Part shown: positions 1 through 8,926 of the stretch, in pieces
How the letters are laid out: each line of letters starts with the position of its first letter
Numbering within the stretch: position 1 is the stretch's first letter
NCBI GenBank assembly: GCA_020626545.1
Contig: JAHKZS010000087.1
Location: 1 to 8,926, forward strand
Reading direction: 5' to 3'
Origin: a bacterium
Lineage (GTDB): Bacteria > Bacillota > Clostridia > Oscillospirales > Acutalibacteraceae
Length of the DNA: 8,926 nt
Program-made: the position numbers and the translations under genes
Notes under the pieces: model-generated
What the model was told of the DNA's origin: nothing
What the model saw: only the letters and a program-made list of their open reading frames with translations
Database searches by the model: none

Positions 1-22
1 AGAGAAAAAATATTTATATTGT

Positions 23-95
23 TCGCTCAGTAGCACGCTGCGCGCGCACGAGCGATAACTATACGAAAGCGGCCGCGCCTATTGCGCGCGCTTTC
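23..95 (-). other. GC-rich hairpins at the 3' end of ribU
   Basis: Two inverted repeats follow each other in the direction of ribU transcription. The first pairs 65-71 (GAAAGCG) and 74-78 with 84-88 and 89-95, giving 12 bp with a 2-nt bulge; its 5-nt loop contains part of the ribU stop codon. The second pairs TCGCTC at 23-28 with GAGCGA at 50-55. Neither is followed directly by a U-run; the nearest T-tract on the minus strand is at about 5-10. They may stabilise or end the ribU transcript, but they do not look like a standard intrinsic terminator. Confidence 0.35.
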
Positions 96-711
96 TTGTG
101 AAAGCCGTATTCAGCTTGTAAATCAAGCCCGAAAGCGGTTTATATACGATAAATGTCACCAACGCGACAATAAGTCCCTTAACGAACGTAAACGGCACGT
201 TAAAGATAAGCAGCGATTTAATAAGAGTATCGCTCACGGGTAAAATCATCTTGTACATATTGATAATTACATTCATATCTCCGCCTGCCCAGAGCTGAGC
301 GTATACAGGATATACGACAAAGTAGTTAGACGGAATACTTATAACAGCCATTACAGCCATACCGGCTACCGCGCCGATTAGTGCGCCGATACGGTCTTTT
401 TTATACTTATAGATAATTCCCGCTGTAAACGAAAACGACGCTCCTAAAATAAAGTTAGACAGCTCGCCTATCGCCATAGAGGAACCGAACGGTAAATGGA
501 GCAGATTTTTCAGAGCGGCGATAATAACGCCGTAAACAGGCCCCATAGCGAACGCGCCGATAAGCTCGGGGATATCCGAAAAATCGAGCTTTAAAAACGA
601 CGGCACGAGCGGAATACTTACCTCGATATACTGCAAGATAAACGCCACGGCGGTAAGCATAGCGGTTACAACGAGCTTAGTTGTGGTTGATTTTGTGTTT
701 GAATTAGTCAT
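79..711 (-). CDS. ribU: Riboflavin ECF transporter substrate-binding (S) component RibU
   Basis: Integral membrane S component that binds riboflavin and works with a shared ECF energising module (EcfA, EcfA', EcfT), which is not in this window. The 210-residue length suits the family. Residues 37-50 (PSFLKLDFSDIPEL) are the typical RibU segment, followed by KNLLHLPFGS at 68-77 and IGELSNFILG at 81-90. About six hydrophobic helices run from residue 13 to 195, and the tail is basic (TRKRAQ). The ATG at 711 is supported by a perfect AGGAGG at 719-724, seven bases upstream. The gene lies behind an FMN riboswitch and a terminator, which independently supports a flavin role. The family match is seen in the sequence, the substrate follows from family and riboswitch, and dependence on a remote ECF module is inferred. 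Confidence 0.94.
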   Translation of the reverse strand: MTNSNTKSTTTKLVVTAMLTAVAFILQYIEVSIPLVPSFLKLDFSDIPELIGAFAMGPVYGVIIAALKNLLHLPFGSSMAIGELSNFILGASFSFTAGIIYKYKKDRIGALIGAVAGMAVMAVISIPSNYFVVYPVYAQLWAGGDMNVIINMYKMILPVSDTLIKSLLIFNVPFTFVKGLIVALVTFIVYKPLSGLIYKLNTAFTRKRAQ

Positions 712-719
712 AATACGAC

Positions 720-739
720 CTCCTAAAAAATAATAGGAG
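720..739 (-). promoter_or_regulatory. Hairpin covering the ribU ribosome binding site
   Basis: CTCCTA (minus strand, 739-734) is complementary to TAGGAG (725-720), giving a perfect 6-bp stem with an 8-nt A/T loop. The 3' arm contains most of the AGGAGG ribosome binding site at 719-724. This could hide the site from ribosomes and add translational control below the transcriptional terminator. The pairing is seen in the sequence; the regulatory effect is inferred. Confidence 0.5.
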
Positions 740-764
740 CTGTCTTGGGTGTAAAGTTAAACAT

Positions 765-793
765 AAAGAAAACCCCGTTGAAATTCAACGAGG
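765..793 (-). terminator. Intrinsic terminator of the FMN riboswitch expression platform
   Basis: On the minus strand, bases 793-785 pair with 781-773 (9 bp including one U-G wobble, 3-nt loop), followed at once by TTTTCTTT at 772-765. It lies between the FMN aptamer and ribU, as expected for a riboswitch that stops transcription when FMN is bound. The 5' side contains GCCTCG (794-789), which can also pair with CGAGGC (924-919) at the start of the aptamer. That pairing is a possible antiterminator excluding stem P1; it is inferred and covers only 6 bp. Confidence 0.85.
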
Positions 794-813
794 CTTAATT
801 ACAGTATAACTGT

Positions 814-929
814 ATCTTCTTCCATCCGGACTTTACCGTCGGCGCCTGAATCTCACAGGCTCAGCGAAAGCTATAGCTTTCGGTCGCGGGCTTTACCGCC
901 GGTGGGGAATTTCACCCCGCCTCGAAGAC
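814..929 (-). promoter_or_regulatory. FMN riboswitch (RFN element) aptamer
   Basis: The minus strand carries the conserved RFN blocks in order: TCGAGGCGGGGTGAAATTCC, CCACCGGCGGTAAAGCCCGC, a variable stem (GAAAGCTATAGCTTTC), GCTGAGCCTGTGAGATTCAG and GACGGTAAAGTCCGGATGG. Closing stem P1 pairs GTCTTC (929-924) with GAAGAT (819-814). The element senses flavin mononucleotide. Together with the terminator at 765-793 it is expected to switch off ribU when FMN is plentiful. A small palindromic stem (ACAGT/ACTGT, 801-813) sits between aptamer and terminator. Confidence 0.97.
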
Positions 930-942
930 AACTTCCAATAAT

Positions 943-970
943 ATTATATATCTAATTTTTTATTTGTCAA
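943..970 (-). promoter_or_regulatory. Sigma-A promoter for the riboswitch-ribU transcript
   Basis: Perfect TTGACA (970-965) and TATAAT (948-943) hexamers, separated by 16 bp, lie on the minus strand. The expected transcript start, near 936, is just ahead of the aptamer at 929. The -35 box lies inside the last codons of the upstream membrane protein gene and the -10 box begins just past its stop, so the two units are packed with no spare space. Confidence 0.85.
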
Positions 971-1829
971 CTTTTTTCTTTCTGAATCTGAAATTATAGA
1001 TTTCACGGCGGTTGATATAGTTAAACTGGATTCCGTAGAGCAGAATATACATTGAAAAGTAAAACCATATCATAATAACCGCTATGGACGTAAGGCTTCC
1101 GTAAATCGAAAAGCCGTTAAAATACTTTACATAAATCCGTATTCCATATGACAGTCCTAACCAGCAAAGCGCCGTTAAAAATACACCCGGGAGCTGAAGT
1201 CTGAACTTTGCCCAACGTTTATCGTCGACTTTATTTCTAAGATAGAGTTTAATGGCTAAACTTACGAGCAGTAATAGCGCGGCGAATACTACAAAGTACC
1301 TCAACGTATAAATAATACCTAAAATATAAGGGAGGTTTTTAATAAACGGGCGCAGTTGATTATCGAAAAACTCGGTAACGATAAGCAATCCGACCGTGAG
1401 GACCATAACTAAGAACATCAAGAGCGTATAGCCCATAGCGTAGATACGCTTAATAATCCATACTCTTTTATACTCTATCTTATAGATTCTGTTTATGCCG
1501 TCGGTTATCGAGTACAAGCCCTTACCCGCCGACCACAAGGCGACGATAATTGTCGTAAAGGCTATACCGATAGAGTTGGCGTAGGTGGTATCGACAATCG
1601 ATTTCAGCTTATCTCCCCAATCATCGACGAATACGCCCTGAATATAGGTTTCGTAGAACTCTCTCGGGATATTGAAATATGAAAGCACCGCGAACGCGAA
1701 CATCAAAAACGGCACTATTGACAGAACCAAAAAGAATGCCGACTGAGCAGCGATAGCCGAGATGTTATCCTCTTTGCTCTTACTTAGAAAATATTTTATT
1801 TTACCGAGCAGTTTATTCTTTCGTTTCAT
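960..1829 (-). CDS. YihY/BrkB-family inner membrane protein
   Basis: A 289-residue multi-pass membrane protein of the YihY/virulence factor BrkB family (UPF0761). Family marks are the N-terminal AIAAQSAFFLVLSIVPFLMF (25-44), a central WSAGKGLYSITDGINRIY stretch near residue 99, and a C-terminal SIYGSLTSIAVIMIWFYFSM followed by LYGIQFNYI. About six membrane helices are predicted and the tail is very basic (FRFRKKKVDK). The molecular role of this family is not settled, so none is assigned. The ATG at 1829 fits the family N terminus, but no Shine-Dalgarno sequence precedes it: the upstream bases are T/A/C-rich repeat sequence ending only 7 bp away. The flavin promoter's -35 box overlaps the last codons. 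Confidence 0.88.
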   Translation of the reverse strand: MKRKNKLLGKIKYFLSKSKEDNISAIAAQSAFFLVLSIVPFLMFAFAVLSYFNIPREFYETYIQGVFVDDWGDKLKSIVDTTYANSIGIAFTTIIVALWSAGKGLYSITDGINRIYKIEYKRVWIIKRIYAMGYTLLMFLVMVLTVGLLIVTEFFDNQLRPFIKNLPYILGIIYTLRYFVVFAALLLLVSLAIKLYLRNKVDDKRWAKFRLQLPGVFLTALCWLGLSYGIRIYVKYFNGFSIYGSLTSIAVIMIWFYFSMYILLYGIQFNYINRREIYNFRFRKKKVDK

Positions 1830-1836
1830 AATTATT

Positions 1837-1867
1837 TAGGTTACAGGTTTTAGGTTACAGGTTACAG
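1837..1867 (+). repeat. Left terminal inverted repeat (heptamer array)
   Basis: Four phased 7-nt units start at 1838, 1845, 1852 and 1859: AGGTTAC, AGGTTTT, AGGTTAC, AGGTTAC. The 31-bp block is the inverted partner of 2316-2346, with two mismatches. Confidence 0.85.
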
Positions 1868-1888
1868 TATGTTTTAACCTAAAACCTG
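1844..1888. repeat. Perfect 14-bp inverted repeat after the four-helix gene
   Basis: CAGGTTTTAGGTTA (1844-1857) and TAACCTAAAACCTG (1875-1888) are exact reverse complements around a 17-nt loop. The structure begins 2 bp past the stop codon of the four-helix gene and partly overlaps the outer terminal repeat, giving the left end a foldable hairpin. No U-run follows on the minus strand, so it is not called a terminator. It could act as an mRNA-end structure or as a recognition hairpin for element processing; both are inferred. Confidence 0.8.
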
Positions 1889-1890
1889 AT

Positions 1891-2253
1891 TTAACTCTTA
1901 CTCAGCGCCTTTATCAAACTTGTCAGCATTTTATTTATTTCATCCGACAAAAACATAGCTTTGTTAATATCAGTTTCGCTAACATAATTTAATTTAGAAG
2001 CAATATACAGCTGAGTTTGAACCTCAGCGTTAGAACCTTTTGCTATAGACAAAAAATGTATATATTCTTTTATATTCTTTCGTTGTTCACCCTCAGCAAT
2101 ATTAGATGGTATTGACACAACAGCTCTTCTGACCTGGCTTGTCAAGGCATAAATCTCGCTTTTGGGGAATTTTTTTGATATTTCATAAACTTCAACTACA
2201 AGCTCTATTGCTTTGTTCCACACTTTTAAGTCACGATAACTTTTTATATCCAT
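1891..2253 (-). CDS. Four-helix-bundle protein (23S rRNA intervening-sequence / Avd-like family)
   Basis: A 120-residue protein of the TIGR02436/PF05635 family. Visible family marks are DLKVWNKAIELV (8-19), ALTSQVRRAVVSIPSNIAEG (36-55) and EYIHFLSIAKGSNAEVQTQL (63-82); the length is normal. Relatives are encoded in 23S rRNA intervening sequences, or serve as the Avd accessory protein of diversity-generating retroelements, where the bundle forms a basic pentameric barrel that binds nucleic acid and reverse transcriptase. Neither rRNA nor reverse transcriptase is present here. The ATG at 2253 has AGGAG at 2260-2264. GC is about 33% by hand count, well below the ABC ATPase gene next to it, which suggests transfer. 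The gene lies inside heptamer inverted repeats, one of which supplies its likely promoter. A role in binding or spreading those repeats is plausible but unproven. Confidence 0.9.
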   Translation of the reverse strand: MDIKSYRDLKVWNKAIELVVEVYEISKKFPKSEIYALTSQVRRAVVSIPSNIAEGEQRKNIKEYIHFLSIAKGSNAEVQTQLYIASKLNYVSETDINKAMFLSDEINKMLTSLIKALSKS

Positions 2254-2279
2254 AATGCTCTCCTAAAAGCAATTAATAG

Positions 2280-2308
2280 GTTATACTTCGGTTACTGTTA
2301 CCTGTAAA
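2280..2308 (-). promoter_or_regulatory. Promoter of the four-helix gene inside the repeat array
   Basis: On the minus strand TTTACA (2308-2303) and TATAAC (2285-2280) are separated by exactly 17 bp, each matching 5 of 6 consensus positions. Transcription would start near 2273, leaving a short leader that contains the AGGAG site. The -35 box and much of the spacer are heptamer-repeat sequence, so the unit would carry its own promoter. Confidence 0.6.
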
Positions 2309-2349
2309 CTGTCACCTGTCACCTGTAACCTATAACCTGTAACCTATCA
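2294..2349 (-). repeat. Right heptamer array, containing the right terminal inverted repeat
   Basis: Eight consecutive phased 7-nt units occupy 2294-2349. On the plus strand they are ACTGTTA, CCTGTAA, ACTGTCA, CCTGTCA, CCTGTAA, CCTATAA, CCTGTAA and CCTATCA. Bases 2316-2346 are the inverted partner of 1837-1867. The last unit includes the stop codon of the ABC ATPase gene (TCA on plus, TGA on minus). An inward AGGTTATA at 2278-2285 can pair with TATAACCT at 2331-2338, mirroring the left-end hairpin. Confidence 0.88.
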
Positions 2350-3150
2350 ACTATTCTTTACTTTACTCAAAAACGCTTTAACACGTTCGTTGGAGGGGTT
2401 GTCGATAACCTTTTCGGGAGAACCTTGCTCGGCGATAACGCCCTCGTCCATAAAGATAATTTTGTCGGAGACATTTTTCGCGAAGTCGATTTCGTGAGTA
2501 ACGACTATCATCGTGCTGTCGGCGTCTTTAAGCTCTCTTATAACATTAAGAACCTCGCCCGTAAGCTCGGGATCGAGCGCGGAAGTCGGCTCGTCAAAGC
2601 ATAGAACGTCGGGGTTAAGCGCTAAAGCCCTTGCGATAGCGACGCGCTGTTTCTGACCACCGCTGAGATTACAAGGATACTCGTCTTTCTTTTCTAATAG
2701 ATTGACTTTTTCGAGGAGCATTTCGGCGTTTTGGTTAATTAGCTGTTGAGCCTCTTTTAAGCTTTTAACGCCCATATACTCGCCGTTGGTTTTAAGCTGT
2801 TCTTTAGCAGCTAAGGTCGGCGCGAGGGTAATATTGTTAATTACCTTGTACTGCGGAAAGAGGTTGAACGACTGGAAAACAAGTCCGAAACGCAGGCGGT
2901 TTTTCCTAATCTCCGCCTCGCTCTTATTCTTTTCGTCAGCGCCGTCGAAAACAACCTTATCGCCGACGGTAATCTTACCGCTGTCGGCGCGCTCAAGGAA
3001 GTTAAGACACCTTAAAAGCGTAGTTTTTCCCGAACCCGAAGAACCGATAATCGAGAGCACCTCTCCCTTATCGAGCGAAAAACTGATATTTTTAAGAACT
3101 TCGTTTCTGCCGAAACTTTTTTTAAGATTTTCTACATTTAAATATGACAT
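2347..3150 (-). CDS. Polar amino acid ABC transporter, ATP-binding protein
   Basis: The cytoplasmic ATPase that drives the importer encoded by the two preceding genes. All nucleotide-binding motifs are intact: Walker A GSSGSGKT (36-43), Q-loop glutamine 93 in VFQSFNLFPQ, signature LSGGQKQ (162-168), Walker B VLCFDE (182-187) and switch histidine 219 in VTHE. FQSFNLFPQ and the overall layout are typical of the GlnQ/HisP group. At 267 residues it is longer than the usual ~240; the extra sequence lies at about 113-135, between the Q-loop and signature. The ATG at 3150 has GAGGGA at 3163-3158, formed by the last codons of the permease gene, so the two are probably translationally coupled. The stop codon lies in the last heptamer of the adjoining repeat. 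The exact amino acid cannot be told from the ATPase. Confidence 0.95.
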   Translation of the reverse strand: MSYLNVENLKKSFGRNEVLKNISFSLDKGEVLSIIGSSGSGKTTLLRCLNFLERADSGKITVGDKVVFDGADEKNKSEAEIRKNRLRFGLVFQSFNLFPQYKVINNITLAPTLAAKEQLKTNGEYMGVKSLKEAQQLINQNAEMLLEKVNLLEKKDEYPCNLSGGQKQRVAIARALALNPDVLCFDEPTSALDPELTGEVLNVIRELKDADSTMIVVTHEIDFAKNVSDKIIFMDEGVIAEQGSPEKVIDNPSNERVKAFLSKVKNS

Positions 3151-3154
3151 ATGG

Positions 3155-3799
3155 TTATCCCTCGTAATAGCTGAGCTTTTTCTCGATAAACTTGAATAAG
3201 ATTGATAATAATCCGCTGAACAACAGGAAGAATACTCCCGTATAGAAAAGCGGCCAGATTAAGCCCTGCATAGTAAATCTTTCGGCGCCCTTTAAGATTT
3301 CGGGTACCATAATAACACGCGCGAGCGAGGTATCTTTAACGAGAGTGATAATCTCGTTACTCATCGGCGCGGTGATGCGTTTTACAACCTGTAGAAGTAC
3401 GATTTTAAAGAAAATCTGGCTTTTCTTCATACCGAGAACCTGTCCCGCCTCGTACTGTTCCTTGGGGATAGCTTCGATACCGCCGCGGAAGATTTCCGAG
3501 AAATAAGCCGCGTAGTTTATAACGAACGCGATAAGCGCCGCTGTCATACGGTCGAAGGATATTCCCCACACAAGCGACGGAATATAAAACACAACAAAAA
3601 GCTGGAGCATAAGGGGCGTACCTCTTATAATCCATACTATAGTTCTTGTGATACTTTTAATCGGTAAACATTTAGAACGCGAGCCGAACGAAACTATAAG
3701 ACCTAGCGGAATCGCGGCCACCAAGGTGACCGCGAAAATAATACAGTTCTGTCCGAAACCTTCTAAAAGATTACCCGTGACATTAAAAAACTGTTCCAT
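3155..3799 (-). CDS. Polar amino acid ABC transporter, permease protein
   Basis: A 214-residue inner-membrane permease of the HisM/GlnP family, with about five membrane helices. It shows the family's RGTPLMLQL (59-67) and the cytoplasmic EAA loop that docks on the ATPase, with EIFRGGIEAIPKEQYEAGQ (102-120) and the core EAGQVLGMKK (117-126). NEIITLVKDTSL (148-159) is also typical. A single permease gene implies a homodimer. The ATG at 3799 shares one base with the stop codon of the binding-protein gene (TAATG), with AAGGG at 3810-3806 as the ribosome binding site. Only 4 bp separate its stop from the ATPase start. The compact binding protein-permease-ATPase order is the standard arrangement for a complete importer. 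Confidence 0.95.
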   Translation of the reverse strand: MEQFFNVTGNLLEGFGQNCIIFAVTLVAAIPLGLIVSFGSRSKCLPIKSITRTIVWIIRGTPLMLQLFVVFYIPSLVWGISFDRMTAALIAFVINYAAYFSEIFRGGIEAIPKEQYEAGQVLGMKKSQIFFKIVLLQVVKRITAPMSNEIITLVKDTSLARVIMVPEILKGAERFTMQGLIWPLFYTGVFFLLFSGLLSILFKFIEKKLSYYEG

Positions 3800-4596
3800 T
3801 ATTTACCCTTTACTAAAATTAAATCTTTGAGGTTGTATTTTTCCGCGATTTCGTCGAGCTTACCGTCGTCGGCGAGCTTCTGGATAGCGGCGTTAACCTT
3901 TTTGAGAGTTTCGGGGCTGTCCTTGCGGAAAGCGATACCGTACTGCTCGGGTGCGAAGTCCTTACCCTCGACAACAGCTAAATCAGCGTAGTCGGAGCCT
4001 GACTTTAATGTACCGATAGACATAACGTAGTCGATTACGGCGATATCGGAAGTACCGCTCTTAACCTCCATAAGAGCCTTAGCCTGTGAGTCGGCGGCTA
4101 CGTAATTAGAGCCCTTGAAGAACTTGTCGCCCTTGGCAACTTCTTCACCGGCGGAGCCTGCCTCGGCTACAACCTTAGCGCCCTTAACGGATTTAGCGAA
4201 CTTCTTGGCGTTAGACTTTTTAACAACCATAACCTGCTTGTTCTCCATATAAGGAGTAGAGATATCCATATTCTCTTTACGCTCGTCGGTAATAGTTAAG
4301 CCGTTCCAGATACAGTCGATGGACTTGGAGTTAAGCTCAACCTCTTTGGAATCCCATTCGATTTCCTGGAAGTCAGCCTTTACATCGAGCTCATCGCATA
4401 CAGCCTCGGCGAACTCAGTCTCGAAGCCTACGAGCTTACCGTCTTTCTTATAGTTCATCGGCTCGAAATATGTAATACCGATAACCATCTTGCCCTTGTC
4501 AGCGATATAATCCCAATCCTTCTTCTCTCCGCCGCAGCCGGCGAAAAGAGCGATTACTGTGATAAGAGATAACATTAAAGCAATTATTTTTTTCAT
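3799..4596 (-). CDS. Polar amino acid ABC transporter, substrate-binding lipoprotein
   Basis: A 265-residue extracellular solute-binding protein (family 3, PBPb fold) tethered to the membrane by lipid. The N terminus MKKIIALMLSLITVIALFAG-C is a lipoprotein signal peptide with lipobox LFAGC; Cys21 would be modified by Lgt, and an lgt gene lies in this window. The mature part carries the amino acid clamp: NGLTITDER (98-106), whose arginine normally holds the ligand carboxylate, and GTSDIAVIDY (181-190), whose aspartates normally contact the amino group. This supports a polar amino acid ligand, but cystine, glutamine and others cannot be separated by eye. First gene of the operon; GAGGTG (4608-4603) precedes the ATG and a promoter lies at 4637-4665. 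Confidence 0.95.
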   Translation of the reverse strand: MKKIIALMLSLITVIALFAGCGGEKKDWDYIADKGKMVIGITYFEPMNYKKDGKLVGFETEFAEAVCDELDVKADFQEIEWDSKEVELNSKSIDCIWNGLTITDERKENMDISTPYMENKQVMVVKKSNAKKFAKSVKGAKVVAEAGSAGEEVAKGDKFFKGSNYVAADSQAKALMEVKSGTSDIAVIDYVMSIGTLKSGSDYADLAVVEGKDFAPEQYGIAFRKDSPETLKKVNAAIQKLADDGKLDEIAEKYNLKDLILVKGK

Positions 4597-4636
4597 TTTT
4601 TACACCTCATTTTAGTTTTAAATAATCAGCTTTATA

Positions 4637-4665
4637 AGTTTATCACAGCACTATGCTAAAGTCAA
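4637..4665 (-). promoter_or_regulatory. Promoter of the amino acid ABC operon
   Basis: TTGACT (4665-4660, 5 of 6) and TAAACT (4642-4637, 4 of 6) are spaced by 17 bp on the minus strand. This places transcription start about 35 bp ahead of the binding-protein start codon. The heptamer repeat 4682-4722 lies directly upstream of it. Confidence 0.65.
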
Positions 4666-4681
4666 GAGTTTTGCCTAAATA

Positions 4682-4722
4682 AGTAGTCGGTATCTGTCAT
4701 CCTGAGCCCTTTGCCCTTTGCG
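4682..4722 (+). repeat. Degenerate heptamer array downstream of the BspA pair
   Basis: Phased 7-nt units CTGTCAT, CCTGAGC, CCTTTGC, CCTTTGC run from 4694 to 4721 and abut the stop codon of the second BspA gene. The preceding AGTAGTC (4682-4688) and the CTGTCATCCT core (4694-4703) recur at 7544-7564 in the gap before the BspA pair, in the same orientation. No terminator is seen here for the BspA transcript. CTGTCATCCTGAGC also resembles a common dispersed bacterial repeat motif (from memory, not checked). Confidence 0.6.
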
Positions 4723-6018
4723 CTAAATATACACATAATACATCTTATACTTTCGGGCGTAACGGTAGGCGGGGGAATTATATTTTACGCCGAGTATAAA
4801 GCCCCTAAGCACTACATCTTCCCAGTCGTACATCGCTTTATCGTATTCCTCGACAATACCGAAAGCCTTTTTCTCGATTTTAACGGTATTTTCGGGAACA
4901 TCAACCCGCTTTAAACTTTCACATTCGTAGAAAGCGTATTTATCGACGGTGAGTTTTTTCTTTGACTTTAAATCGACCGACGAAAGCTTCGGGCAATGCG
5001 CAAACGATTCTTTACCGATATACTTTAAGTTTTCGGACAAGCTCACTTGTTTTAGTTTGTGACAATCGGAAAACGCTTCGGCGCGAATTTCGGTAACCTT
5101 ATTCTTCAGATTCACCTTAACAAGCTTATAACAGGACTCGAAAGCGTGTTTATCTATAGTTTTAAGACTGCGGTTAAAATTAACCGTTTCGAGCTTTTTG
5201 CATTTATAAAACGCGTATTTACCGATATACTTCAGCTTTTTATCGAGCGTAATCTTTTTTAGGTATTTATGATTATAAAAAGCTGATTCCTCTATTCTTT
5301 TAACGGTTTTACGCACTCTATAGTTTTTCTGTTTTCGAGCGGACGGATAATAATAAAGCTTTGTCTTTTTCTTGTTATAGAGAACTCCCTTTGCGGAGCT
5401 AAAATATTTATTAGCTTTATCTACCTTGAACTTGGTTATCTTGGAATTTATAAAAGCGTCAGGCTTGATTTTTTTAACATTACTTCCAATATAGAAGGTT
5501 TTTATTCCGCAGTTCATAAACGCTTCTTCCTCGATTTTTGTAACGGTTTCGGGGATAGAAACGTTCTTTAGTTTTTTGCAATTTCTAAAAAGTCCGTAGG
5601 AAACAGTCTTTAGGCCGCTCGGCAGTTTAACGCTTTTAAGCTTACCGCACTCAGCGAAAAAACTCGAACTTATATATTTAACGGAATTCGGAACTATAAT
5701 AGTTTCAACATATTTATTAAGCCAAAATCCAAACTCAAAATTACCGTTCCAATCTACAATATCGTTAAAGTCCTCCCAGCTTCCGCGTTTATCGGGCCTG
5801 TCGTCCGAGAGAGCGACAACCTTTCTGCCGAGTAAAGTAGAAGGGATTTTTACCGTAGACTCTTTACCGAAGTAGCCGACAATTTGGATATCTTTTCCCT
5901 TAAAGGTGTAGCTATAGTTTCCGTGGCGGTAAATTCTATACACATAAGCACCCGAAGATACCGTAAACACGGTAACTAAGGTAACAGCCGCTAGTAAAAA
6001 TGAAATTAGTTTTTTCAT
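4723..6018 (-). CDS. Secreted BspA-like leucine-rich repeat protein (second of pair)
   Basis: A 431-residue lysine-rich exported protein. Residues 1-24 form a signal peptide (MKKLISFLLAAVTLVTVFTV, cut near SSGA). BspA-type LRR_5 repeats of about 23 residues, of the pattern AF..C..L..V.L...L..I, run from about residue 105 to 400. The usual central island GVLYNKKKTKLYYYP lies between them. The C terminus ends SPAYRYARKYKMYYVYI, the normal BspA cap. There is no LPXTG, SLH or dockerin anchor, so it is probably released or held by charge. Relatives in oral and gut bacteria bind host or bacterial surfaces; that role is inferred. The ATG at 6018 has a very strong AAGGAGGTG (6032-6024) overlapping the stop codon of the upstream paralogue, so the two are translationally coupled. 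Confidence 0.92.
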   Translation of the reverse strand: MKKLISFLLAAVTLVTVFTVSSGAYVYRIYRHGNYSYTFKGKDIQIVGYFGKESTVKIPSTLLGRKVVALSDDRPDKRGSWEDFNDIVDWNGNFEFGFWLNKYVETIIVPNSVKYISSSFFAECGKLKSVKLPSGLKTVSYGLFRNCKKLKNVSIPETVTKIEEEAFMNCGIKTFYIGSNVKKIKPDAFINSKITKFKVDKANKYFSSAKGVLYNKKKTKLYYYPSARKQKNYRVRKTVKRIEESAFYNHKYLKKITLDKKLKYIGKYAFYKCKKLETVNFNRSLKTIDKHAFESCYKLVKVNLKNKVTEIRAEAFSDCHKLKQVSLSENLKYIGKESFAHCPKLSSVDLKSKKKLTVDKYAFYECESLKRVDVPENTVKIEKKAFGIVEEYDKAMYDWEDVVLRGFILGVKYNSPAYRYARKYKMYYVYI

Positions 6019-6030
6019 ATCGACACCTCC

Positions 6031-7377
6031 TTAAACCGCTTTAAATATGAATTTATTTTCACGCGCGTACTTTTCGGCGGCAGTACCGCGGTATCCTATT
6101 ATTGTAAAATTCTTTACAGACCCTTTGTCCGTAAACCCGAACGCGTCGTCATCTATCTCCTTTACCGAGCTCGGGATTTTTATCTTTTTAAGCTTAGGAC
6201 AATTGTCAAACATTTCGTAGGGAATACGTTTAACGCCGTCTTTAAGAATTACCGTTTTAAGATTTTTGCAGTAATAAAAAATCGCGCCTTCCCATTTTTT
6301 ACCTATATAATCTATGGTGACTTTATTTAGATTTTTACAATACCCAAACGCTTCACAACATATCTTTAGATTCTTATTCTTCTTTATGTGCAGTTTTTTC
6401 AGGCTTTTACAAGAATCAAAAGCGACAGCGCCGACAAATTTGAGATGTTTATTTAATGTAACCGAGGTTAATTTTTTACATGCCGAAAAAGCGGAGCTTC
6501 TTATTTTTTCGAGCTTCTTATTAAACTTGACCGAATTAAGATTATTGTTACCGTAGAAAGCGAAATAGTATACCTCTTTTACACTGCTCGGGAACGTAAA
6601 GCGCCTTTTGCTCCTATTCATAGGATAGGCTCTGAGGACAGTTTTTTTCTTATCGTAAAGCACGCCGTTTTTACTCGAAAAATATTTATTAGTCTTGCTG
6701 ACGGATATTTTTTCGAGCTTCGGACACTCGGTAAAAATATAAGAACTCAAGCCTTTAAGTCCGCTTCCAAACGATATAGAGCGTAAAGCCGAATAGTCAA
6801 AGCACTCGAGGTAACAATTTTTGACGCTGTCAGGAAGCTTGAGAGCTTTCAGACTTTTACAATAAGCGAACGTGTAAGCCTTTATAAATTTAACCCCGTT
6901 GGGAATCGTAAGCTTGGGAAGCTTAGTACAGTAGTAGAACGCTCCCGCGCCTATCTCTTTTAGTCCGCTCGACAGCTTAACGGAGGTTAATTGAACGCAG
7001 TTATAAAAGGCGTAGCTTCCGAGCGTTTTTACGGACGAAGGGAGCTCGGCGCTTTTAAGATTATCGCAATATGAAAACGCGTCGCTCTCGATTATGGAAA
7101 TTCCGCTCGACACTTTCAGCGTTTTAATAAACCGTCCGACGAACGCTGCTTTACCGATAGTCTCGACCTTTTTTTCGTCGAGCTCGGCGGGTACGGTTAC
7201 ATCGTCCGAGTTTCCGATATACTCGGTTATTTTAAGCTTGCCGTTTTTCTGAATCTGATACTTATAATCTCCGCTGGTGTAGGTTTTAACCGTTTGAGAT
7301 TTTTTTGCCTCAGCGCTCAGGGTAAATATCGAGATAAACAGCGCGAGTATCAGCGTAATTGAAATTAGTTTTTTCAT
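6031..7377 (-). CDS. Secreted BspA-like leucine-rich repeat protein (first of pair)
   Basis: A 448-residue exported protein, paralogous to the gene that follows it. The signal peptide MKKLISITLILALFISIFTL ends near SAEA-KK. A short beta region (YKYQIQKNGKLKITEYIGN) leads into LRR_5 repeats such as IGAGAFYYCTKLPKLTIPNG, with about 23-residue periodicity up to residue 410. The island SSKNGVLYDKKKTVLRAYPM matches the one in its neighbour. The end, GYRGTAAEKYARENKF, is the typical BspA cap, and no wall anchor is visible. The ATG at 7377 has AAAGGGGTG at 7391-7383. The first 14 bases of its coding strand and several bases before are identical to those of the second gene, pointing to tandem duplication. 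Surface adhesion is the family inference, not shown here. Confidence 0.92.
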   Translation of the reverse strand: MKKLISITLILALFISIFTLSAEAKKSQTVKTYTSGDYKYQIQKNGKLKITEYIGNSDDVTVPAELDEKKVETIGKAAFVGRFIKTLKVSSGISIIESDAFSYCDNLKSAELPSSVKTLGSYAFYNCVQLTSVKLSSGLKEIGAGAFYYCTKLPKLTIPNGVKFIKAYTFAYCKSLKALKLPDSVKNCYLECFDYSALRSISFGSGLKGLSSYIFTECPKLEKISVSKTNKYFSSKNGVLYDKKKTVLRAYPMNRSKRRFTFPSSVKEVYYFAFYGNNNLNSVKFNKKLEKIRSSAFSACKKLTSVTLNKHLKFVGAVAFDSCKSLKKLHIKKNKNLKICCEAFGYCKNLNKVTIDYIGKKWEGAIFYYCKNLKTVILKDGVKRIPYEMFDNCPKLKKIKIPSSVKEIDDDAFGFTDKGSVKNFTIIGYRGTAAEKYARENKFIFKAV

Positions 7378-7396
7378 AGGAACACCCCTTTTATAA

Positions 7397-7425
7397 ATTC
7401 TATCTTACTATAGTAGTGTCGAAAA
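7397..7425 (-). promoter_or_regulatory. Possible promoter for the BspA pair
   Basis: TAGAAT (7402-7397) matches the -10 consensus at 5 of 6 positions; 17 bp upstream is only a weak -35 (TTTTCG). A 10-bp palindrome TACTATAGTA (7406-7415) lies in the spacer and could be an operator. Weak evidence: the -35 match is poor. Confidence 0.3.
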
Positions 7426-7521
7426 ATCGGAAAAAAGTTTCAAAATTTTCGAAAGTTTTTTATCTTTGTAGGATTGCACAAAATCAAGGGCGTGAAATTG
7501 TATATTATCACGAACGATTAG

Positions 7522-7584
7522 CAGTCCTCCGTTCTCAGTATTCAGTAGTCAGCGCTGTCATCCTACACCCTAAATCCTACACCC
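7522..7584 (+). repeat. Degenerate heptamer array between the BspA pair and lgt
   Basis: Nine 7-nt units keep one phase over 63 bp: CAGTCCT, CCGTTCT, CAGTATT, CAGTAGT, CAGCGCT, GTCATCC, TACACCC, TAAATCC, TACACCC. The unit sequence drifts from TTCAGTA-like to CCTACAC-like while the period stays at 7. Bases 7544-7564 align with 4682-4703 (AGTAGTC, then 4 versus 5 nt, then CTGTCATCCT). No reading frame of note crosses it. It lies just upstream of the lgt promoter. Confidence 0.65.
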
Positions 7585-7595
7585 AATACACATAC

Positions 7596-7624
7596 TTGAA
7601 ATAACCTTATATTTCTGCTAAAAT
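7596..7624 (+). promoter_or_regulatory. Promoter of lgt
   Basis: TTGAAA (7596-7601, 5 of 6) and TAAAAT (7619-7624, 5 of 6) are separated by exactly 17 bp. The predicted start near 7631 leaves an untranslated leader of only about 9 nt before the lgt ATG at 7640, with GGTG as the only Shine-Dalgarno candidate. Confidence 0.75.
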
Positions 7625-7639
7625 AGACACGGTGTTGTT

Positions 7640-8443
7640 ATGTTACCTGAAATACATTTATTCGGGTTGAGCCTGAGTACATACGGAATATGTACCTCGA
7701 TAGGCTTAATCCTTATGTGCGCTGCCGCGTACATTCTCGGAAGAAAATACAAAATACTTTTTGAGGATATACTTTTCGGCGAGATTTTCGCGCTTGTCGG
7801 AGCTTTTATCGGCGCGCATATTTTATACGGTATCACCTACGCCGACGCGATTTTTAATTCTTTAATGGAATTTTTCTCGAAGCGTCAGGACATCTCGCGC
7901 CTGTGGGAAATAATCTACACCTATATGGGCGGAATGGTATTTTACGGCGGACTTATTCTCGGGCTTTTATTCGGAGTAATGTACTGTAAATTACGAAAAA
8001 TCGACGTCGGGAATTTCAGCGACTGCTTTGCCGCGGGAATACCGCTTTTCCACTGTTTCGGACGGTTGGGCTGTTTTTTCAGCGGATGCTGCTACGGAAT
8101 AGAGAGCGATTTCGGATTTACCGCGACTCACTCGCTGACGCCGAGCTGTAACTTTGTAAACCGCTTCCCTGTTCAGCTTTTAGAGAGCGGAGTAAATCTC
8201 GTAATATTTGCTGTTATACTTGTATTATTCCGTAAAGGAATTTTAAAAGGCAGACTGATTTACGTATATCTGCTGAGTTATTCTGTAGCGAGGTTCTTTA
8301 TCGAGTTTTTAAGAGCCGACACATACAGGGGAATATTTTTCGGAATATCCACGAGCCAGTGGATTTCGATTTTACTTATAATATTCGCAACTATAATTCT
8401 AATTAAGAAAAATAAAAGGATTGAGATAAATGAAAAAATGTGA
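7640..8443 (+). CDS. lgt: Prolipoprotein diacylglyceryl transferase (divergent Lgt)
   Basis: A 267-residue membrane enzyme with about seven helices. It transfers diacylglycerol from phosphatidylglycerol to the lipobox cysteine of prolipoproteins. Family features are STYGICTSIGL (13-23), MGGMVFYGG (96-104), the signature GRLGCFFSGCCYG (141-153) with Arg142 as the probable counterpart of an essential arginine, FPVQLLES near 177, and ARFFIEFLRADTYRG (217-231) with the second conserved arginine region. Differences from E. coli-type Lgt are YGG in place of HGG and GCFFSGCC in place of GNFxN; from memory such variants occur in clostridia. Because of this it could be a second, specialised Lgt homologue. 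The ATG at 7640 fits the family N terminus. The gene overlaps the next one by 14 bp. Confidence 0.88.
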   Translation: MLPEIHLFGLSLSTYGICTSIGLILMCAAAYILGRKYKILFEDILFGEIFALVGAFIGAHILYGITYADAIFNSLMEFFSKRQDISRLWEIIYTYMGGMVFYGGLILGLLFGVMYCKLRKIDVGNFSDCFAAGIPLFHCFGRLGCFFSGCCYGIESDFGFTATHSLTPSCNFVNRFPVQLLESGVNLVIFAVILVLFRKGILKGRLIYVYLLSYSVARFFIEFLRADTYRGIFFGISTSQWISILLIIFATIILIKKNKRIEINEKM

Positions 8444-8726
8444 TTACTGCGGAAAAGAAATCTCGTATATGGAGCAATACTGCGACGAAAACTGCCACAG
8501 AAAAGCCCTTGACTTCTATCAGCTGCAGGAAAAGTTCTCGAAGCTGTTTTCGATAGTAAACATAATCTGCGTGTTCGGAATACCGATAGGAATTTTTATC
8601 TCGACCTTCGCGGGAGCGATCGGATTTACTCTGCTGTCGTTCTCGGTAGCGGTCGAGGGACTTATTATATTAATACTGCCGTTTCCTGTCGAGAATATGA
8701 TAACCTCGATGCCCCTTTGCCGGTGA
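8430..8726 (+). CDS. Small zinc-ribbon membrane protein, 3' end replaced at a sequence junction
   Basis: The 98-codon frame starts at an ATG inside the end of lgt, with AAAGGA (8415-8420) nine bases ahead, so it is the second gene of an lgt operon. Cys4, Cys7, Cys18 and Cys22 (CX2C-X10-CX3C) form a likely zinc ribbon. Two hydrophobic helices follow, at about 41-60 and 66-85, ending in LPFPVENMI. As I recall clostridial relatives, a conserved, basic, helix-rich tail follows this PFP-ENMI segment. Here only TSMPLCR precedes the stop, and those last codons fall where base composition changes and mraY sequence begins. The natural protein is therefore probably longer and the stop at 8724-8726 artificial. 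Function unknown. Confidence 0.7.
8704..8713. other. Probable chimeric junction (assembly or rearrangement)
   Basis: To the left, sequence is about 46% GC (8581-8700) and encodes the zinc-ribbon protein. To the right it is about 62% GC (8761-8926) and encodes the middle of MraY in another frame. The mraY frame is blocked by TAA at 8701-8703, so that gene has no start here. Two unrelated genes broken at one point fit an assembly chimera better than a natural insertion. Confidence 0.7.
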
Positions 8727-8926
8727 GGTTGACCTCGGCTTCTTCTACTACATTCTGTCCGCCGTTGTGATTGTCGGCATTGTCAATGCGGTCAACCTGA
8801 CCGACGGTGTGGACGGACTCGACGGCTCCATCACCTTCTTTGTGGCGGTGTCCTTCATGCTGATTTCCAGCGCGCTTTACCGCTTGGGCATCACCGCCTT
8901 CAGCGCGGCGGTCGCAGGCGCCTGCC
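8713..8926 (+). CDS. mraY: MraY internal fragment (phospho-N-acetylmuramoyl-pentapeptide transferase), both ends missing
   Basis: An open frame begins [20 protein letters not shown] and continues through [14 protein letters not shown] to the window end (71 codons). NxxNLTDGxDGL is a signature of the polyprenyl-phosphate N-acetylhexosamine-1-phosphate transferase family, and the VDLG lead-in with FFYYI favours MraY over WecA/TagO. MraY is a multi-pass membrane enzyme that makes lipid I for peptidoglycan. The normal N-terminal half (about 170 residues, including the DD motif) is absent, and no start codon or ribosome binding site precedes it. Codons end mostly in G or C (GTC, GGC, ACC, TTC), unlike every other gene here. 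It probably derives from a different, higher-GC organism or locus joined at about 8704-8713. Confidence 0.85.

Follow-up and report, generated by a model that had tools for sequence, protein, structure and literature searches.

The window analysed here, a bacterial DNA stretch of 8,926 nucleotides, contains a compact unit bounded by inverted repeats between a yihY/BrkB family gene and an ABC transporter ATPase gene (Table 1). The two arms (1837-1867 and 2316-2346) are complementary at 29 of 31 positions, with 448 nt between them. Their score of 26 makes them the strongest inverted repeat in the window with arms within 1 kb, compared with a mean of 13.0 and a maximum of 16.5 in 40 Markov-1 shuffles, indicating that the 31-bp ends proposed in an initial annotation of this DNA are real. 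The arms enclose a single open reading frame of at least 80 aa, encoding a protein (hereafter IVP) that scores 139.5 bits against PF05635 (cut-off 33.8) and 130 bits against the TIGR02436 four helix bundle protein model (cut-off 24), and is thus a member of the family. The GC content of the gene is 32.5%, compared with 41.0% across positions 1-8726. Both the enclosed Avd/IVS-family gene and its low GC, as originally described, were therefore confirmed. Seven nucleotides separate the left arm from the yihY start codon (1827-1829). At the far end of the window (8727-8926) GC rises to 60% past the last open reading frame, which resembles a chimeric contig end, and an FMN riboswitch was noted at 810-933 (reverse strand), ahead of an ECF transporter gene (79-711).

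Table 1. Features of the element and its immediate surroundings (window coordinates)
Feature	Position	Strand	Basis
yihY/BrkB family gene, downstream of and co-directional with the IVP gene	960..1829	-	Open reading frame and profile matches
Left inverted arm, tandem heptamers [TC]AGGTT[AT], G-rich from outside to inside	1837..1867	+	29/31 with right arm; lag-7 array 1838-1867
Pair of inverted heptamers opposite 1844-1857, allowing the left end to fold back on itself	1875..1888	-	14/14 complementary
IVP gene, 120 aa, PF05635 / TIGR02436 four helix bundle protein	1891..2253	-	Profile matches; PDB relatives 2gsc, 2rld
AGGAGAG, likely ribosome-binding site of the IVP gene, judged from sequence	2258..2264	-	
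Right heptamer array, about 8 units, C-rich on the + strand	2295..2354	+	Lag-7 array
Right inverted arm, abutting the ABC ATPase stop codon (2347-2349)	2316..2346	+	Inverted-repeat match
ABC transporter ATPase gene, upstream of and co-directional with the IVP gene	2347..3150	-	Open reading frame and profile matches

Both ends of the element are tandem arrays with a lag of 7 nt, and the same heptamer is read from outside to inside at either end. The 31-bp end is therefore a portion of a heptamer array, and on the right the array extends beyond the arm; the heptamers of the initial annotation stand, and the extent of the ends is refined. Under a stricter setting these two were the sole arrays of lag 5 to 9 in the window, and a looser setting added two short, weaker lag-7 runs in intergenic DNA, at 4700-4725 (CCCTTTG) and 7527-7552 (TCAGTA), possibly solo arrays of other elements. 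A sister genome (G238) has the window element at the same site; this copy (L026) carries an insert of ~277 bp, at about 2683-2959, with AGGGTAACAGAAG-like inverted ends, within the right heptamer array.

Profile searches of the sole gene returned PF05635 and its relatives only, with no catalytic domain, nuclease, reverse transcriptase (RT) or transposase, and the IVP protein did not match the model of the tyrosine transposases (RAYT). Six residues are invariant or nearly invariant (Q40, R43, S47, N51, E54 and E77) and do not form a recognisable catalytic set. The PDB relatives 2gsc and 2rld contain five chains each, and passages of PMC4990558 describe the S23p-type protein as a homopentamer and S23p proteins as having no known function. 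The Avd accessory proteins of diversity-generating retroelements (DGRs) are distant relatives in sequence: IVP scored 33.5 bits against PF22296 bAvd (cut-off 40) and 29.7 bits against NF033474 (cut-off 80), and PMC10053308 presents Avd as a relative. In contrast to the DGR setting, the window's own genome (G000, an assembly 86.8% complete) gave no RVT_1 match at E 1e-3. There was likewise no RVT_1 match in 60 of the 96 IVP-bearing genomes, many of whose assemblies are incomplete; RT matches were present in 36/96 carriers and 27/104 non-carriers (p 0.094). Given these missing matches, a strict need for a reverse transcriptase found no support and such a requirement is unlikely, a view tempered by the incomplete assemblies.

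The nearest known system is the 23S rRNA intervening sequence, which in Leptospira and Coxiella can carry an S23p/IVP open reading frame. The window element resembles it both in its PF05635 protein and in the placement of the reading frame within an inverted-repeat stem (here with 29/31 arms). According to parts of PMC4990558, the 23S intervening sequences are suspected to be mobile or a transposition remnant, and that of Coxiella has its reading frame in a loop closed by a 28-bp stem that is cut by RNase III. The window element differs in that it lies between protein genes, in that its arms are tandem heptamers and in that there is no sign of arm selection at the RNA level (see below). Residence in 23S rRNA was rejected for the window element, given its position between the yihY and ABC ATPase genes and the lack of any rRNA match in the window; nor was large-subunit rRNA found in 39 other IVP loci scanned.

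The family is widespread. Of the genomes sampled, 96 of 200 from the window's family and 116 of 148 from Bacteroidota gave PF05635 matches, compared with 0/14 control genomes. Searches with the window protein (tblastn) identified relatives in 45 of 72,556 plasmid records (Nostoc accounted for 18) and none among 50,697 phage records, a search that would miss distant relatives. A total of 214 IVP-positive reading frames in 204 loci were reduced to 154 distinct genes with usable flanks by leaving out same-protein duplicates, flanks below 150 nt, proteins below 90 aa and matches with E above 1e-6; these loci are the best-scoring matches rather than a random sample. A locus was called armed when a matching inverted repeat with a score of at least 14 was present in up to 220 nt upstream and downstream of the gene.

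By this measure 91 of the 154 PF05635 loci carry arms in their own flanks, as against 0/141 when control flanks lying 480-700 nt out were used and 6/459 when flanks were swapped between loci. When the final 45 nt of the gene were included, 97/154 loci were armed versus 11/459 swapped pairs. Two plasmid copies with clean empty sites (L158 and L173, below) fall under the score threshold, as the downstream arm of each runs into the end of the gene. Armed loci made up 52/85 in the window's family and order, 12/29 and 8/15 in Bacteroidota, 2/4 in Chloroflexota, 4/5 in Omnitrophota and 13/16 on plasmids (12/14 cyanobacterial, one Riemerella armed and one Azospirillum unarmed). The same build is thus shared by five phyla or more: Bacillota, Bacteroidota, Chloroflexota, Omnitrophota and, on plasmids, Cyanobacteria.

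Among the 81 arms of at least 22 nt, 66 had period 7, 8 had period 8 and 7 had neither; identity at lag-7 and lag-14 was 0.76, compared with 0.24-0.31 at the remaining lags from 2 to 15. In 483 kb, 138 of 176 lag-7 arrays lay within 220 nt of an IVP gene, a density 10.5 times higher than elsewhere, and lags 5, 6, 8 and 9 gave 0, 1, 20 and 3 arrays, respectively. (A first analysis used 107/111 distinct proteins, with some short fragments still in.) The remaining 63 of the 154 loci lacked arms by score. Among these, a weaker lag-7 array (12 of 15) flanked the gene on both sides at 4 loci and on a single side at 20, compared with 12/295 single control flanks, and 8/63 had a different upstream hairpin array with three or more nine-mers.

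Two sub-groups of unarmed loci have conserved upstream hairpin arrays: a first set (L051, L053, L130, L145, L064, L133, L132 and L142), with the arrays in the upstream 300 nt and covered by the count above, and a second set (L024, L057, L060, L061, L125, L127, L128, L134, L136, L137, L143 and L146). The arrays consist of short conserved units (RGTKATATT / AATATMACY, or GAAG-type) split by small variable hairpins. They look like a second repeat type tied to the PF05635 family.

The initial annotation also proposed looking for multiple copies bounded by the same 31-bp ends. Such copies proved to be the exception: among 52 clear heptamers, 48 differ even after rotation, so a shared end sequence was ruled out. 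The heptamers nevertheless follow a loose motif, N-A-R-K-K-N-N in the outside-to-inside reading, with 3.73 bits versus 3.02 +- 0.13 for shuffled heptamers (maximum 3.41 in 100). In one genome (G200) all eight fetched elements were armed and carried eight different repeats, one of them of period 8; end sequences are specific to elements rather than to species. Distances between proteins and between their heptamers are correlated (Mantel r 0.30, reached in 0 of 2000 permutations), which fits recognition of the heptamer by the protein but could also reflect plain common descent.

Within an element, the two arms agree in register, with an identity of 0.887 versus 0.79 when slid by +-7, and shuffling the order of units lowered the arm score in 49/60. 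One explanation for this agreement is that the arms act in RNA, with the transcript stem cut by RNase III as happens with 23S rRNA intervening sequences and selection keeping the arms complementary. The build of the Coxiella intervening sequence, as given in the cited part of PMC4990558, and the strong sense orientation of the elements (see below) are what such a role would predict, and folding of the window element is much more favourable than that of shuffles (z -5.5 as DNA), as it would be for any inverted repeat. However, arm mismatches showed no bias towards G-U pairs in the sense transcript (62 sense versus 54 antisense; 81 versus 87 in a larger set), so there is no sign of the arms being kept for RNA pairing, and an RNA stem calls for neither a period of 7 nor a shared motif. 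Maintenance at the RNA level was accordingly left without support, and we regard this explanation as improbable.

Direct evidence for insertion comes from plasmids of Nostocales, where two related insertions have clean empty sites and 5-bp target duplications, GTAAT and TTCTA. The first (L158, from Trichormus variabilis and found among Nostocales conjugative plasmids) is missing from three records (L163-L165) with flanks that are 96-98% identical, and the comparison of the filled site with these three empty records gives the duplication GTAAT. A further record near this empty site (L166) retains a cut-down copy, indicating that losses occur too. The second (L173) shows the duplication TTCTA against an empty record (L155), and the same insertion in another plasmid (L174) has TTCTA and TTCTG at its ends.

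Junctions are not uniform, and some of the messy ones were compared across flanks of only 85-93% identity; the comparisons cover a part of the empty-looking records. Base pairs of the empty site were missing at L154 and its twin L160 (10 to 32 bp, varying by record), at L152 (13 bp, with flanks of about 85%) and at L157 (42 bp). Against two records the element of L155 shows a 3-bp overlap with filler, and against a third it lacks 7 bp. At L191, 197 bp were replaced, and this junction may be a product of recombination because its flanks are unequal in identity to those of L252 (91% and 99.8%). In the window's own family, two elements (L047 and L055) adjoin tRNA-Leu genes, 5' parts of which are repeated on the element's far side (45 and 23 bp). 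Two copies in a relative of the window's genus (L010 and L020 in G015) are 84.8% identical over the element with 0 bp of flank aligned.

Scans for direct repeats within a box around the ends of 66 elements found 50 5-mers versus 45.6 expected, 23 6-mers versus 12.6, 17 7-mers versus 4.1 and 13 8-mers versus 1.3, and in a wider scan two elements scored at least 12, as did 1 of 325 swapped pairs. A constant target duplication readable from the flanks alone was thus unsupported.

Terminal inverted repeats are a trait of insertion sequences with DDE transposases, and 5-bp target duplications are made by many DDE transposases; here the window element has such repeats, while the duplications were seen at two sites in relatives and junctions differ elsewhere. 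Avd proteins, for their part, assist reverse transcriptases. It could therefore be argued that the elements are passengers, moved entirely by a conventional transposase or reverse transcriptase acting in trans, with no part played by IVP. The lack of a recognised nuclease or RT in the element and the slightly greater frequency of RT matches in carriers point in this direction. Against it, 48 of 52 heptamers differ, leaving a transposase no constant end to read, the heptamers follow the relatedness of the proteins, and the RVT_1 matches that an RT would require are missing from the window's own genome and most carriers (with the incompleteness noted above). On balance we consider such a passive role unlikely.

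Arrays also occur without the gene. In one Nostoc operon, which is empty in L155 and L174, two records (L170 and L172) have an extra ~140 bp with inverted CAGGAGT-type arrays but no gene, and two others (L171 and L173) have a second, nested array pair with unrelated cores. The plasmids of L173 and L174 also carry a complete IVP element whose arms are of this type, and the gene-less forms with these arms are polymorphic among Nostoc plasmid records. A search of the window's genome for the heptamer pattern, allowing up to 3 mismatches and counting overlaps, gave 98 matches, 10 of them in the window element, versus 21 for the reversed pattern. Of 14 sites viewed, those at C37, C83, C84 and C112 are clear solo arrays and C188:4492-4556 is a gene-less inverted pair; weaker solo sites may be chance. 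At C84, L070 and L085 contain a tandem repeat of ~102-103 bp combining the heptamer array with TAGATGTAACTACCCT-type sequence, maybe another miniature repeat that uses the array. Taken together, the empty sites of relatives, the copies whose homology ends with the element, the gene-less forms and the solo arrays of the window's heptamer in its own genome uphold the original proposal that the protein and its repeats form an independent unit.

Intergenic tandem heptamers have been described elsewhere: portions of PMC4692102 and PMC4679880 report GGGAATC in Xanthomonas, GGGGA(C/T)T in Nostoc and TAACTGA in Beggiatoaceae, put such heptameric simple repeats, common in some bacteria, down to polymerase slippage and, in PMC4692102, count 70 and 75 convergent inverted heptamer pairs in two Xanthomonas genomes. 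A word search for 'four helix' and 'S23' gave 0 occurrences in these two papers. Arrays grown by slippage as microsatellites, or serving as chance recombination sites, might have picked up a hitch-hiking gene between two of them, and solo arrays do exist: where G238 has an element with gene and two arms (L097), G000 has only one array and 45 bp, a difference that may be a gain or a loss. Slippage does not account for arms that are inverted and agree in the order of their repeat variants, for the enrichment of arrays near IVP genes, for 5-bp duplications at clean empty sites or for the recurrence of one build in Bacillota, Bacteroidota, Chloroflexota, Omnitrophota and cyanobacterial plasmids, and this origin is highly improbable.

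The elements are strongly oriented with respect to their surroundings. Neighbour orientation could be judged in 85/91 armed and 55/63 unarmed loci; between co-directional neighbours, 69 of 72 armed elements point in the same direction as these (p 2.6e-17), as do 35/41 unarmed IVP genes. One exception is L152, which is opposed to its nrd neighbours. Two elements (L151 and L156) lie within CRISPR operons of cyanobacterial plasmids, of type I-D (cas6/cas4) and type III-B (cas10/cmr3), respectively. Arm and start codon are separated by a median of 36 nt, which leaves little room for a promoter, and we therefore infer that the IVP gene is transcribed from the host operon. Since the ends are alike on both sides, the sense bias must arise from selection or from a transcription-coupled step, two sources that the data do not separate.

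Candidate binding sites flanking a small gene placed in the sense direction within operons would also suit a regulator, with the arrays serving as operators through which IVP controls itself and its neighbours and nothing moves. Such an arrangement leaves the empty sites, duplications, gene-less copies and element-bounded homology without explanation, and the empty sites refute it for the Nostocales copies; overall it is hardly credible.

The window unit is probably a copy of a widespread class of minimal, selfish element in which one PF05635 gene lies between inverted, element-specific heptamer arrays. As relatives sit inserted at sites that are empty elsewhere, the window copy is likely to be mobile too, and its protein likely binds its own arrays. 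We propose that the IVP protein, a pentamer in solved relatives, would read the heptamer arrays of its own element, perhaps with one subunit for each 7-nt unit (a guess), and would pair the two ends. Binding and end pairing by the pentamer have moderate support; the following steps are inferred. Cutting and joining of the paired ends would fall to an activity for which the element has no recognisable candidate, likely one provided by the host or in trans. With little room for its own promoter, the gene would be transcribed as part of the invaded operon, in keeping with its sense orientation. The similarity of the arms likely results from one being copied from the other via a fold-back intermediate, so that the heptamer of each element could change in step with the protein. 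Arrays that lack the gene, solo ones included, would be miniature or broken derivatives.

A novel kind of mobile element, and a very small one, is the likely interpretation of this build, which recurs in several phyla and is cleanly inserted in some plasmids that otherwise match. MITEs and insertion sequences are similar in their terminal inverted repeats, in the 5-bp duplications seen here at two sites and in having gene-less forms, but IVP elements have no transposase and their end sequence varies between nearly all elements. By analogy, REPIN/RAYT systems likewise combine one small gene with short end repeats and a larger gene-less population, and their trait of dispersed gene-less end copies in the same genome is found in G000 (the 98 versus 21 matches and the C188 pair). 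However, RAYTs are tyrosine transposases acting on palindromes, whereas IVP has no such domain and its ends are heptamer arrays. Four-helix-bundle genes are named in passing by two genome papers (PMC8700078, PMC5524665), in one as strain-specific. No description of such an element was found among the open-licence papers listed, and one could exist elsewhere.

A broader reading, which we put forward tentatively and hold to be possible rather than probable, is that IVP is the sole dedicated mobility protein of an unrecognised element class: a 120-residue pentamer without a known nuclease fold that would read drifting heptamer arrays, possibly in single-stranded form. The intergenic heptamers of many bacteria would then be its miniature or dead population, and the 23S rRNA intervening sequences and Avd would be branches of the same lineage. 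If the proposal is true, it gives a function to the S23p proteins and explains why intergenic heptamer repeats exist, and it makes the spread of 23S intervening sequences directly testable. The elements would then represent a mobile element whose ends drift alongside its own protein, without a recognised recombinase.
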